Shown: positions 55,300 through 59,410 of the stretch, piece by piece
Layout: every line of letters starts with the position of its first letter
Numbering within the stretch: the stretch's first letter is position 1
NCBI RefSeq assembly: GCF_008728965.1
Contig: NZ_VSMC01000001.1
Span: 1-59,410, forward strand
Source of the DNA: Heminiphilus faecis
Lineage (GTDB): Bacteria; Bacteroidota; Bacteroidia; Bacteroidales; Muribaculaceae
Length of the DNA stretch: 59,410 nt
Reading direction: 5' to 3'
Notes under the pieces: generated by a model
Told to the model about the DNA's origin: nothing
The model's database searches: none
The model's input: only the letters and a program-made list of their open reading frames with translations
Translations under genes and position numbers: made by a program

Positions 55300-57921
55300 T
55301 CAGTCGGTTTTGCCGGTGATTATCGACTTTATGTCATGGAGTTTGTTGAGAGCGGCCATAGGCGTAAGATTGTTGATGTCGGTATGCAGTATTTCGTCAC
55401 GTATCTGCGTGAGTACTGGGTCGTCAAGCTGAAAGAATGACAACTGCACGCCTCCGCGCTCTTCGGCTATATTGCTCATATTCTTACCTATCGAGTCCTG
55501 ACGGTTATTGCTCTCAAGATGCTTCAACACTTGGTCGGCACGCTTTACTATAGTCTGCGGCATGCCGGCGAGCTTAGCGACATGTATACCGAAACTGTGT
55601 TCGCTGCCCCCTTTGGCGAGCTTGCGTAGAAACACGACCTTGCCGTTGATCTCCTTTACCGACACATTATAGTTCACTACCCTCGGGAAGCTCGCAGCCA
55701 TCTCGTTGAGTTCATGGTAATGGGTGGCAAAGAGAGTCTTGGGATGCATTGAGCCGTGCTCATGGATATGCTCCACTATGGCCCAAGCTATGGATATGCC
55801 GTCGTATGTGGAAGTACCGCGTCCAAGCTCGTCAAACAGTATAAGACTGCGTTCGCTCATGTTGTTGAGTATCGAGGCCGCCTCGTTCATCTCGACCATA
55901 AACGTGGACTCGCCGAGCGATATATTGTCGCTCGCCCCGACACGTGTAAACACCTTGTCCACAACTCCTATGCGGGCGCTCTCGGCCGCCACGAAGCTGC
56001 CTATCTGCGCAAGTATAACATTAAGGGCGGTCTGACGCAACAGGGCTGACTTACCCGACATGTTCGGACCGGTGATCATCATGATCTGCGTGCCCGTATT
56101 GCTCAGGTTCACACTGTTGGTTATGTACGGCTCACCGGGCGGCAGCTGCTTCTCGATCACAGGGTGGCGCCCCTCCTTTATGTCTATTACAAGCGAGTCA
56201 TCGACTACCGGACGGTTGTAATGGTTCTCCATCGCCACACGTGTAAACGACAGCAATACGTCGATATGGGCCACAAGCGACGAATCAAGCTGAATGGCGG
56301 GTATAAATTCTACGAGCCGCGCCACCAAGTCATTATACAGCCGGGTTTCTATTATGGCTATCTTCTCCTGCGCTCCGAGTATTTTCTCTTCATAGTCTTT
56401 AAGTTCCTGAGTGATATAACGCTCCGCATTGACAAGAGTCTGCTTGCGTATCCACTCTCCGGGCACTTTTGACTTGTGAGTGTTGGTAACCTCGATATAG
56501 TAGCCGAACACATTATTGTAACCTATCTTCAGGCTCGGGATGCCGGTGGCGGCCACTTCGCGTGCCTGAAGCTTCATTAGATAATCTTTGCCCTGATACG
56601 CTATGTCGCGCAATTCGTCAAGCTCGGCGTCGACCCCGTGCTTTATAACCGTACCGCGGTTAATGGCTATGGGAGCGTCATCGACAATCTCGCGGTCTAT
56701 ACGGTCGCGTATAAGCGTGCACGGATTAAGCTGCTCGCCTATGGTTTTCAGCGCCTCAAGGTCAGAATTGCAGCATAGCGTCTTTATTGGATTGATAGCG
56801 GTAAGGGCATTGCGCAGCTGCACTACTTCACGTGGCGTCACTCGTCCTACGGCAACTTTGGATATTATGCGCTCCATGTCGCCTATCTGCTCAAGAAAAG
56901 TCTTTATCTGGTCGCGCTCTTCAGGATGACGGAAGAAATACTCAACTATATCAAGACGCGAGTTTATGGCCTTGACATCTTTGAGCGGAAACAGAAGCCA
57001 TCTGCGAAGCAATCGGGCGCCCATGGGACTGACCGTACGGTCAATGACTCCGAGCAGGCTTCTGCCCTCGTCGGCCATTGTATCGACGAGTTCCAGATTG
57101 CGTACAGTGAACTTGTCAAGCCTTACATAGCTACTCTCTTCGATGCGGCGCAACTTCAGTATATGCCCTATTTCGGTATGTTTTGTTATGTCAAGATAAT
57201 GGAGTATGGCTCCGGAGGCAACAATAGCGGCATGCATGGCGTGGACACCGAATCCTTTGAGGTTGCGCGTCTCGAAGTGCTTCAGCAGCCGGTCGAGTGC
57301 AGCCTCCTCGGTAAATATCCAGTCGTCCAGTTCAAAAGCAAGATAGCGGGTATTGAACGTAGCATCGAGCCACTTGCGTGACCCGCGCTCGATCAGCACC
57401 TCCTTAGGGGCGAAATTATTAAGCAGTTTATCTATATAATCGGCGGTACCCTCGGCCGTCAGGAACTCACCTGTGGAGATATCAAGGAATGCCACCCCGA
57501 CGACCCCCGCCTTGGTAGCATGCAATGCCGCCACAAAGTTATTTTCTTTATGGTTAAGCACTGTGTCGTTGATTGACACTCCGGGGGTAACAAGTTCTGT
57601 TATGCCACGCTTGACAAGCTTCTTGGTCAGCTTCGGATCCTCAAGCTGCTCGCATATGGCCACACGTTTTCCGGCCCTTACAAGTTTGGGTAGATATGTA
57701 TCGAGTGCGTGATGCGGAAACCCGGCCAGTTCTACATATTGCGATACCCCGTTGGCGCGTCGGGTGAGTGTTATACCGAGTATCTCCGACGTAATTATGG
57801 CATCATCGGAAAATGTTTCGTAAAAGTCGCCGACACGAAACAGCAATATGGCATCGGGATGTTTTTGTTTCATCTCGATGTATTGCTTCATAAGTGGAGT
57901 TTCGACAATTTTATGAGCCAT
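55300..57921 (-). CDS. mutS: DNA mismatch repair protein MutS
   Basis: An 873-residue MutS1-type protein. The mismatch-contacting Phe-x-Glu motif is in [11 protein letters not shown] near the N-terminus; Walker A is [14 protein letters not shown], Walker [17 protein letters not shown]. Full length with clamp and dimer domains, followed by an 80-residue C-terminal tail. It recognises mismatches and hands over to MutL; no mutL is nearby. It stands alone; the repeat cluster starts about 100 bases upstream of its start codon. Confidence 0.97.
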
Positions 57922-57939
57922 GAATCTACTTTTATTGTG

Positions 57940-57947
57940 TAAAGTTA
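57940..57947 (-). promoter_or_regulatory. Probable -7 box of mutS
   Basis: TAACTTTA on the minus strand, one base off the TAnnTTTG consensus, 18 bases from the start codon. Confidence 0.35.
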
Positions 57948-58020
57948 CTACATCCGCGCCGCTTTCGCAAATACTTTTAGCGCCTGCCTATCCGATAAAT
58001 CATTAAACAGCGTCCGGTCG

Positions 58021-58553
58021 CGGAAAATCCCGGGCCAACGTTGATTGAACGACAACCGTGCGGTAGGGGCGCCAGTACCACGGCGCCCGGTTACGACCCG
58101 TAGGGCCGTCAGGGTTCCACAAACGTATTGGCGCAGACGCCACGTATATTGGGCCGTACGGATTCGCGGGCGCCGTGGTACTGGCGCCCCTACAGACTTA
58201 TCCGATTCACATCGACATTGAGCCATCCGGATTTTACCAACGTACAGGCGCAGACGCCACGTATATTGGGGCTGCGAGCCTGTAAAGGCTCACGCCAAAC
58301 GTTAGCCGGGTACAAAGTGCCCGGATTGCGAAATTCGCAGTAAAAGTTGTTTGAGTCTGACAAGACTCGTGCTTGTTTCGACTGATGGCTCGATTCAGGC
58401 ATGAGTCTTTACAGACTCATCGATGAGGGAAAATACGACATACCGGAGACTGCGTCATCCTTCGGATGCCTTGTCCCCGGCTAACGTGAGGCAGGAGCCT
58501 TGACAGGCTCTAAATATCGGAACCCATTTTCATTGCAAAATTGAGCAAGCCAT
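58021..58553. repeat. Composite repeat unit, copy 1 (about 530 bp)
   Basis: It is made of an A module (58021-58093, 73 bp), a B module with a 26-bp segment at 58168-58193 that is the exact reverse complement of 58063-58088, and a C module (58244-58553). Copy 2 is at 58709-59236 in the same orientation; most of the difference is in about 40 bases just before C. A 24-mer starting GGCGCAGACGCC occurs at 58130 and again at 58247. No credible gene; ORFs seen here are frame accidents. Confidence 0.85.
58244..58553. repeat. C module, 310-bp structured repeat, copy 1
   Basis: Copy 2 lies at 58927-59236, same length, with 4 differences by eye. A 35-nt inverted repeat bounds a 235-base core (58276-58310 and 58476-58510, 30 of 35 pair). 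Inside or at the arms are four hairpins with a GAGYCT stem and a four-base loop: 58276-58291, 58353-58368, 58401-58420 (8-bp stem) and 58495-58510. A fifth, CATCC-TTC-GGATG, is at 58456-58468. This density of perfect hairpins suggests a structured RNA or single-strand DNA form. Confidence 0.75.
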
Positions 58554-58562
58554 ACGGATACG

Positions 58563-58781
58563 CGGAAAATCCCGGATCAACGTTGATTGGACGGCAACCG
58601 TGCGGTACTGGCGCCAGTATCACGGCGCCCGGTTACGGAAAATCCCGGGCCAGCGTTGATTGGACGACAACCGTGCGGTAGGGGCGCCAGTACCACGGCG
58701 TCCGGTCGCGGAAAATCCCGGGCCAACGTTGATTGGACGACAACCGTGCGGTAGGGGCGCCAGTATCACGGCGCCCGGTTA
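58563..58781. repeat. Three tandem 73-bp A modules
   Basis: Copies start at 58563, 58636 and 58709, exactly 73 bases apart, each beginning CGGAAAATCCCGG. The first reads CGGATCAACG, the second CGGGCCAGCG and the third CGGGCCAACG just after that. A fourth free-standing copy is at 58021 and a fifth, shortened one at 59238. The third tandem copy is also the start of composite unit 2. Confidence 0.85.
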
Positions 58782-59236
58782 CGACCCGTATGGCCATCAG
58801 GGTTCCACAAACGTACAGGCGCAGACGCCAAGTATATTGGGCCGTACGGAGACGCGGGCGCCGTGGTACTGGCGCCCCTACAGGCACATCCGATTCACTA
58901 CGGCGGCCGTACGGATTCGCCACGGTACAGGCGCAGACGTCATGTATATTGGGGCTGCGAGCCTGTAAAGGCTCACGCCAAACGTTAGCCGGGTACAAAG
59001 TGCCCGGATTGCGAAATTCGCAGTAAAAGTTGTTTGAGTCTGACAAGACTCGTGCTTGTTTCGACTGATGGCTCGATTCAGGCATGAGTCTTTACAGACT
59101 CATCGATGAGGGGAAATACGACATACCGGAGACTGCGTCATCCTTCGGATGCCTTGTCCCCGGCTAACGTGAGGCAGGAGCCTTGGCAGGCTCTAAATAT
59201 CGGAACCCATTTTCATTGCAAAATTGAGCAAGCCAT
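58709..59236. repeat. Composite repeat unit, copy 2 (about 530 bp)
   Basis: Same order as copy 1: A (58709-58781), B with the reverse-complement 26-mer at 58856-58881 of the near-identical 58751-58776 (one base differs; spacing of 79 bases is the same as in copy 1), and C (58927-59236). It is 5 bases shorter than copy 1. Confidence 0.85.
58927..59236. repeat. C module, 310-bp structured repeat, copy 2
   Basis: Near-identical to 58244-58553 at an offset of 683 bases. The four seen differences are two bases near the start (GTCATG for GCCACG), GGGGAAAT for GGGAAAAT and TTGGCAGG for TTGACAGG. The last lies in a hairpin loop and leaves the stem whole. Confidence 0.8.
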
Positions 59237-59237
59237 G

Positions 59238-59410
59238 CGGAAAATCCCGGATCAACGTTGATTGGACGGCAACCGTGTGGTACTGGCGCCCCTACAGACA
59301 CATCCGATTCTCATCGGGATTGGGCCGTGCGGATTCGCGGGCGCCGTACTACTGGCGCCCCTACAGACACATCCGATTCTCATCGGTATTGGGCCGTGCG
59401 GATTCGCGGG
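59238..59410. repeat. Shortened A module and 69-bp B tandem repeats, running off the edge
   Basis: After a truncated A module (59238 on), B modules beginning TACTGGCGCC start at 59281 and 59350, 69 bases apart. Each holds CTACAGACACATCCGATTC and ends GCGGATTCGCGGG, and the sequence stops in the second copy at the window edge, so the array continues beyond it. Confidence 0.8.

Follow-up and report, generated by a model that had tools for sequence, protein, structure and literature searches.

The repeat close to the right end of the window, the whole 59,410-nt stretch of Heminiphilus faecis DNA analysed here, is very probably a REPIN-like non-autonomous element, which, to judge from sequence comparisons, would be moved as single-stranded DNA by a Y1 transposase of subclass 1.2. 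This reading is directly supported by copies at separate loci, by a layout that the element has in common with a transposase-bearing copy, by the pairing of hairpins around the gene in relatives, and by parallel derivatives in two other genera.

An earlier note on this DNA had described a 310-bp module with terminal inverted repeats, present as two copies of equal length 683 bp apart. The two copies were confirmed: positions 58244-58553 and 58927-59236 were 99% identical across 310 nt, and a repeat comparison within the window returned 300-nt copies with 98% identity at a spacing of 683 nt. The repeat is real, but its true unit is a 235-nt element that begins with its first hairpin and ends with its last (58276-58510 and 58959-59193) and lies inside a larger tandem duplication. 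Matches at six other loci covered only unit positions 22-31 to 267-268, which places the limits of the element at the outer hairpins. Since the upstream GTAG repeats were duplicated along with the element (58007-58210 versus 58695-58898, 94%, spacing 688 nt), the window copies are not independent insertions; they are a tandem duplication of a segment of about 685 nt including flanking GTAG repeats, which is why 310 nt are common to the window pair. The reported inverted repeat was likewise present, with arms of 40 nt each (58276-58315 and 58471-58510) that were 85% complementary; however, the 235 nt said to lie between the arms are the span from hairpin to hairpin, and the arms are 155 nt apart. 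The four GAGYCT-N4-AGRCTC hairpins described previously were all located (H1, H3, H4 and H6 below) and were repeated in copy 2.

The left part of the element consists of an outer small hairpin, TTAG with a central hairpin, and an inner small hairpin, followed by a spacer of 10-24 nt; to the right of the spacer come an inner small hairpin, a central hairpin with CTAA, and an outer small hairpin. The left half, when reversed, aligned with the right half. The element sits upstream of the mutS start codon, and the features of this region are as follows.

55300..57921, minus strand: mutS (MutS domains I-V, from a domain search), the left neighbour gene
58063..58193, no strand assigned: GTAG-type REPIN, a GTAG+GGGCGCC...GGCGCCC hairpin with an inverted partner (arms 58063-58089 and 58167-58193, 100% complementary)
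58276..58510, plus strand: element copy 1, 235 nt, from the sequence; matches elsewhere break off around unit positions 29 and 268
58276..58291, minus strand: outer left small hairpin H1, GAGCCTgtaaAGGCTC, within the inverted arm, with GGCG 5' of it on the minus strand
58302..58305, plus strand: TTAG at the outer foot of the left central hairpin, a putative guide, from the sequence; TAR is enriched here in relatives
58306..58324, plus strand: left central hairpin CCGGGTACAAAGTGCCCGG (CCGGGTAC...GTGCCCGG), from the sequence and the alignment of copies
58353..58368, minus strand: inner left small hairpin H3, GAGTCTgacaAGACTC, from a hairpin pattern scan
58403..58418, plus strand: inner right small hairpin H4, GAGTCTttacAGACTC, with a stem reaching 58401-58420, from the hairpin pattern scan
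58443..58480, plus strand: right central hairpin CCGGAGAC...GTCCCCGG with an inner CATCCttcGGATG hairpin, from a pattern search and pair counts
58481-58484, plus strand: CTAA directly after the right central hairpin, from the sequence
58495..58510, plus strand: outer right small hairpin H6, GAGCCTtgacAGGCTC, from the hairpin pattern scan
58678..58881, no strand assigned: additional GTAG repeat copies at 58678-58704 (plus), 58751-58777 (plus) and 58855-58881 (minus), from repeat and pattern searches
58959..59193, plus strand: element copy 2, 235 nt, with the same six hairpins, a tandem duplication of about 685 nt with copy 1
59338-59364: GTAG repeat site, from the pattern search

The possibility, raised in the earlier note, that the repeat exists only as these two copies did not hold: the genome contains eight long copies at seven loci (C23 twice, C34, C45, C14, C33, C78 and C30). 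Those at the six other loci were 70-82% identical to the window copy and thus gave no sign of present activity; single hairpins were damaged, or the left central hairpin was lost, in some copies, C78 being the most affected. Solo right halves were read by eye at C21, C88 and C23:303688, the last of which is decayed. Across the 3.05-Mb genome, the pattern GAGYCTNNNNAGRCTC had 37 sites, compared with 0 for the reversed pattern, and the central-hairpin pattern had 12. Spread solely by recombination or gene conversion between repeats together with tandem duplication, with no transposition, would account for the window pair, for the tandem array at C22 described below, and for the solo halves. However, single copies stand at separate loci with unrelated flanks and end at hairpins, and a genome of a third genus (G134, below) carries ten end pairs of nearly one length that are too short for a gene. 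We therefore consider recombination without transposition a very unlikely explanation.

Beyond this genome, the 239-nt element core found no match in 13 congeners, and the element had zero matches among plasmids and phages. The central-hairpin pattern was absent from the 396 other genomes of the family (present in 1 of 397), and a wider family defined by this sequence was rejected, as the pattern is confined to the element's own genome among the 397. Seven contig stretches hit outside the genome were set aside because they are labelled as other phyla, as was a single viral contig hit whose similarity was limited to 17 and 12 nt. The DNA search of family genomes was a weak one that scored at most two candidates per genome. 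Both genes flanking the C78 copy were found in eight congeners, at separate places, in the one empty-site attempt made; synteny was not conserved. A protein-coding role was also rejected. No ORF of at least 100 aa lay over the element at four of the seven loci, and a Pfam search of the ORFs overlapping it at C23 (150 aa), C33 (100 aa) and C30 (112 aa) returned zero family matches. In the window, the ORFs of 92 and 150 aa were without a Pfam match.

The plus strand folded to -142.7 kcal/mol, compared with -90.6 +/- 4.8 kcal/mol for 100 shuffles (z -10.8), and the minus strand gave z -8.5, bearing out the claim that the repeat has structure beyond that of random DNA. The minimum-energy fold was one long imperfect hairpin in which arm pairs with arm, the separate small hairpins being an alternative, and the elements of G105 and G134 described below likewise folded into one long two-arm hairpin; the six separate hairpins were read from the sequence rather than from minimum-energy folds. 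In the consensus structure of 14 right halves, 95% of cells were paired. Among these copies of one genome, which are not independent, 16 cells were changed on both sides (shuffled mean 5.9; 0 of 500 shuffles reached this value), and neither covarying pairs (4) nor further pair types (7) were above shuffles, 188 and 473 of 500 of which reached them. The alignment omitted a decayed right half and another that has a deletion. Covariation thus appears to support the helices modestly.

No Rfam family matched the window at the gathering threshold, and a permissive search of 57900-59410 yielded, over the GTAG repeats, two microRNA models that scored well short of their cut-offs. A structured RNA, or a regulatory leader or terminator, that is selected in the host and repeated by chance, with the transposase irrelevant to it, would fit the strong fold, the stem pairs changed on both sides, and the ORF and Pfam results given above. 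Against it stand the Rfam result, the missing matches in the 13 congeners and the 396 other family genomes, the strong folding of both strands, and the recurrence of the same layout in unrelated sequence around transposase genes in relatives. The structured RNA option of the earlier note was accordingly abandoned, and we regard it as very unlikely.

The sole Y1 transposase gene found in the genome is contained in a hairpin array at C22, in which five right and four left halves (L032 2809-4925; C22:33808-35924) surround it. The gene-bearing copy is 712 nt long (L032 3805-4516) and has the same hairpin order as the element. On the minus strand of C22, the outer hairpin, TTAG with the central hairpin, and the inner hairpin precede the gene, which is in antisense, and the inner hairpin, the central hairpin with CTAA, and the outer hairpin follow it. 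The 235-nt element has the layout of this 712-nt copy, except that a short spacer stands in place of the gene. Whereas the other copies have GAGCCT in their outer and GAGTCT in their inner small-hairpin stems, the gene-bearing copy has GCGACT and GAGTCC as outer stems and GAGTCT and GAGCCT as inner ones; it is therefore a relative of their parent and not necessarily the parent itself. As in a MITE, the element is short and non-coding and its ends are common to a gene-bearing element in the genome, with small-hairpin stems that differ. The non-autonomous mobile element, MITE- or REP-like, that had been among the options proposed earlier is supported: copies stand at separate loci in differing flanks, they end at the outer hairpins, and one copy that carries the transposase shares their six-hairpin layout. 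In the C22 array, an additional GGACGGGAGCCGGACTCC-type repeat is inserted in several units. At C88 (L033 1800-2090), a tandem repeat with the hairpin stem GACT/AGTC (GCTGACTTTCAGTCGC...) adjoins the solo right half; this stem type is also that of an outer hairpin of the gene-bearing copy.

The transposase ORF is intact (148 aa) and matched Pfam Y1_Tnp with an E value of 1.8e-23. It passed the NCBIfam IS200 model (72 bits, cut-off 55) and scored 25 bits against a cut-off of 80 for REP_Tyr_transpos. Its Y motif, YIVRQKEHH, has the form Y---Q--HH, and DHVH is also present; by motif, the enzyme would thus bear the signature of TnpA_Y1 subclass 1.2. The solved structures nearest to its profile were IS608-type TnpA and related transposases. 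IS200/IS605 elements and their MITEs are characterised by a Y1 HUH transposase, subterminal hairpins and gene-less derivatives. The present system resembles them in its Y1 HUH transposase, hairpin ends and gene-less derivatives, but differs in having three hairpins per end and a 712-nt copy too short to also hold tnpB, and in that the genome holds one gene copy, with no near-identical multi-copy IS200/IS605-type IS carrying tnpA found. A scan of 25 other contig stretches with the transposase protein confirmed zero relatives, and plasmids carried only distant Y1 genes (47 plasmids, <60% identity). Another genome of the same genus (G009) had ten transposase matches, compared with one in the window's genome.

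The GTAG repeats beside the element are a separate family. GTAG + GGGCGCC hairpins occurred at 76 sites genome-wide, often as inverted pairs, and at none in 13 congeners. Of the seven element loci, five (C23, C34, C45, C14 and C33) lay within 300 bp of a GTAG site, compared with 0.77% of the whole genome, coding and intergenic DNA taken together. This family is either a second client of the same enzyme or orphaned. Past the window end (L035 2412-2511), the assembly has a run of N within a GTAG repeat array.

Transposase relatives were found in 149 of 297 genomes of the family, the element's own included. We took 70 family loci (30 + 40, mostly the best-scoring among the matches listed, with shorter fragments and lower matches left out) and found the Y---Q--HH motif in 68 of them, again including the own locus; the remaining two had a broken and a truncated ORF. 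Flanks were analysed at 66 loci, L062, L069, L136 and L144 having been excluded because their flanks were short or the ORF was broken. An identical 6-nt hairpin stem was present on both sides of the gene at 32 of these 66 loci, which are not all independent since some genomes are near-identical and which include the own locus, counted via an array neighbour. The cross-locus control gave 55 of 4290 (1.3%), and 0 of 1320 mononucleotide-shuffled flanks shared a stem on both sides. At least two different paired stems were seen at 11 of 66 loci, compared with 2 of 4290 cross-locus pairs, and 34 of 66 had no common 6-bp stem. The loops of paired hairpins were mostly inverted (35 inverted, 5 direct, 3 tied), and therefore the paired hairpins face each other. 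The paired stems themselves differed between most loci.

The feet of these hairpins carried a recurrent motif. Among 222 long flank hairpins, the trinucleotide before the foot was TAA in 31 (expected 3.6) and TAG in 24 (expected 2.4); the trinucleotides seen most often at the opposite foot were TTT (11, expected 4.8) and AGA (9, expected 2.7). TAR lay at, or one base off, the outer foot of a long hairpin at 47 of 66 loci and on both sides at 17, compared with 8 and 0 in the opposite orientation. The tetranucleotides directly at the foot in family loci were GTAA (20), GTAG (14), ATAG (8), ATAA (6), TTAA (5) and TTAG (2).

Gene-less derivatives of the same layout, 216-254 nt long and of unrelated sequence, are also carried by two other genera. 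In one of these (G105), the end of a gene-bearing element matched 22 places; the gene-bearing copy is 732 nt long, and two paired ends found elsewhere by the search span 245 nt. An alignment of the 13 dispersed loci with long matches, leaving out the short matches at C17:27691 and C10:10424, showed by reading a complete six-hairpin layout at seven loci (L181, L182, L184, L185, L186, L188 and L190), left halves at L179, L183 and L187, and incomplete copies at L180, L189 and L191. In G134, at least 70 places matched the element end, with 40 of 59 candidates scored. There were 28 plus-then-minus end pairs of less than 1000 nt, many of them overlapping combinations within arrays; ten end pairs spanned 216-254 nt, and two, of 720 and 718 nt, enclosed a transposase gene, the second of which has an in-frame stop. 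Comparison of the elements of the three genera by blastn gave no common aligned stretch of more than 11 nt, and the longest exact match between the window element and G105 was 10 nt (CCCCGGCTAA), at the foot of the right central hairpin.

These comparisons bear on whether the element could instead be a REPIN whose classical RAYT (class 2, Y---NP) has disappeared from the genome, in which case the subclass 1.2 gene would be an unrelated neighbour. REPINs are dispersed, gene-less inverted pairs of palindromes that form one large hairpin and have a cognate Y1 transposase, as set out in the part of the work of Bertels and Rainey (2011, PMC3116915) considered here. The element similarly consists of inverted palindromes forming one large hairpin, is gene-less, dispersed and repeated outside genes, and has a tetranucleotide at its outer foot. 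It differs from the REPINs in that part of the paper (PMC3116915) in being 235 nt long with six hairpins rather than two short REPs, in having TTAG/NTAR rather than GTRG at the foot (the window element has TTAG, not GTAG or GTGG, at the 5' foot), and in the class of its transposase, subclass 1.2 (Y---Q--HH) as opposed to class 2 RAYT (Y---NP). No cognate class 2 RAYT was found in the genome, whose sole Y1 gene has YIVRQKEHH; the 76 GTAG-type REP sites occur although this gene falls outside class 2, which leaves room for orphan REPs in this genome. On the other side, the one copy of the layout that does bear a gene encloses the subclass 1.2 gene, hairpins are paired around such genes at 32 of 66 loci, and the pattern is repeated in G105 and G134. 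A lost RAYT thus seems highly unlikely, and we prefer a REPIN-like element served by the subclass 1.2 enzyme.

Concerning subclass 1.2, the portion of its defining paper considered here (Quentin et al. 2018, PMC6006769) has the table entry 'no' for REP and describes these genes as generally lacking terminal IS200 secondary structures. The present gene agrees with that description in Y---Q--HH, DHVH and its single copy in its own genome, but has triple-hairpin ends and gene-less derivatives. The closest prior analogues, as far as the corresponding portion of text goes, are the TIRtrons with their TIRYTs (Di Nocera et al. 2013, PMC3733652), in which a Y1 transposase lies between long inverted repeats. 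Some of these repeats are double palindromes or self-complementary, and some genomes carry repeated copies; P. putida and P. fluorescens have degenerate GTAG units joined to unrelated stem-loops. The triple hairpin (inner, central, outer), the layout fixed across genera with turnover of sequence, and gene-less derivatives of about 235 nt do not figure in that portion of the TIRtron text (PMC3733652). Titles and abstract openings on REPINs, RAYTs, TIRtrons, TnpA_Y1 and Muribaculaceae or Bacteroidetes repeats contained no hairpin ends for subclass 1.2.

In our proposed mechanism, the parent would be an element of about 0.7 kb with a gene for a Y1 (HUH) single-strand transposase and three hairpins on each side. 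Each end would comprise an inner small hairpin, a longer central hairpin with NTAR at its outer foot (TTAG here), and an outer small hairpin, and loss of the gene would leave two triple-hairpin ends facing each other across the 10-24-nt spacer. In IS608 and TnpA_REP, hairpins are read in single-stranded DNA, the foot tetranucleotide takes part in guide pairing, and a tyrosine mediates cutting and joining. By analogy, the transposase may recognise the hairpins in single-stranded DNA, such as the lagging-strand template; the NTAR tetranucleotide may serve as the guide, as in IS608 and REP systems; and the tyrosine of the transposase would cut and join, moving the element in trans. The protein-binding array also suggested in the earlier note would stand only insofar as the hairpins are likely the substrate of the transposase. 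For the family as a whole, it seems reasonably likely that subclass 1.2 transposases drive single-strand transposons of their own, with triple-hairpin ends and passengers of about 235 nt, and that stems turn over as enzyme and hairpins co-evolve.

Subclass 1.2, which has no REP-like partner in the portion of its defining paper considered here, would thereby gain candidate substrates in the gene-bearing copy and the derivatives that lack the gene, together with a tetranucleotide that may act as guide. These make the question of such a partner testable in vitro with short oligonucleotides, and stem turnover under a fixed layout offers many enzyme-hairpin pairs from which to learn how Y1 enzymes read hairpins. 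For annotation, such elements would explain strongly folding intergenic repeats that might be taken for structured RNAs.

In other families of the phylum, genes of the subclass 1.2 type were found in 145 of 296 genomes. Among 29 loci, the best-scoring of a longer list, the motif was present in 28, and a stem common to both sides of the gene in 11 (58 of 812 cross pairs). A TAR foot was seen at 5 of the 29 loci, compared with 4 of 29 in the opposite orientation, and was thus not enriched. Since TAR is enriched in family loci and not outside, the triple-hairpin form with NTAR is, on present evidence, a family-level feature. Among these loci from other families (L147-L175), CAACCCC...GGGGTTG-type hairpins flank the gene in L148, L150 and L151.
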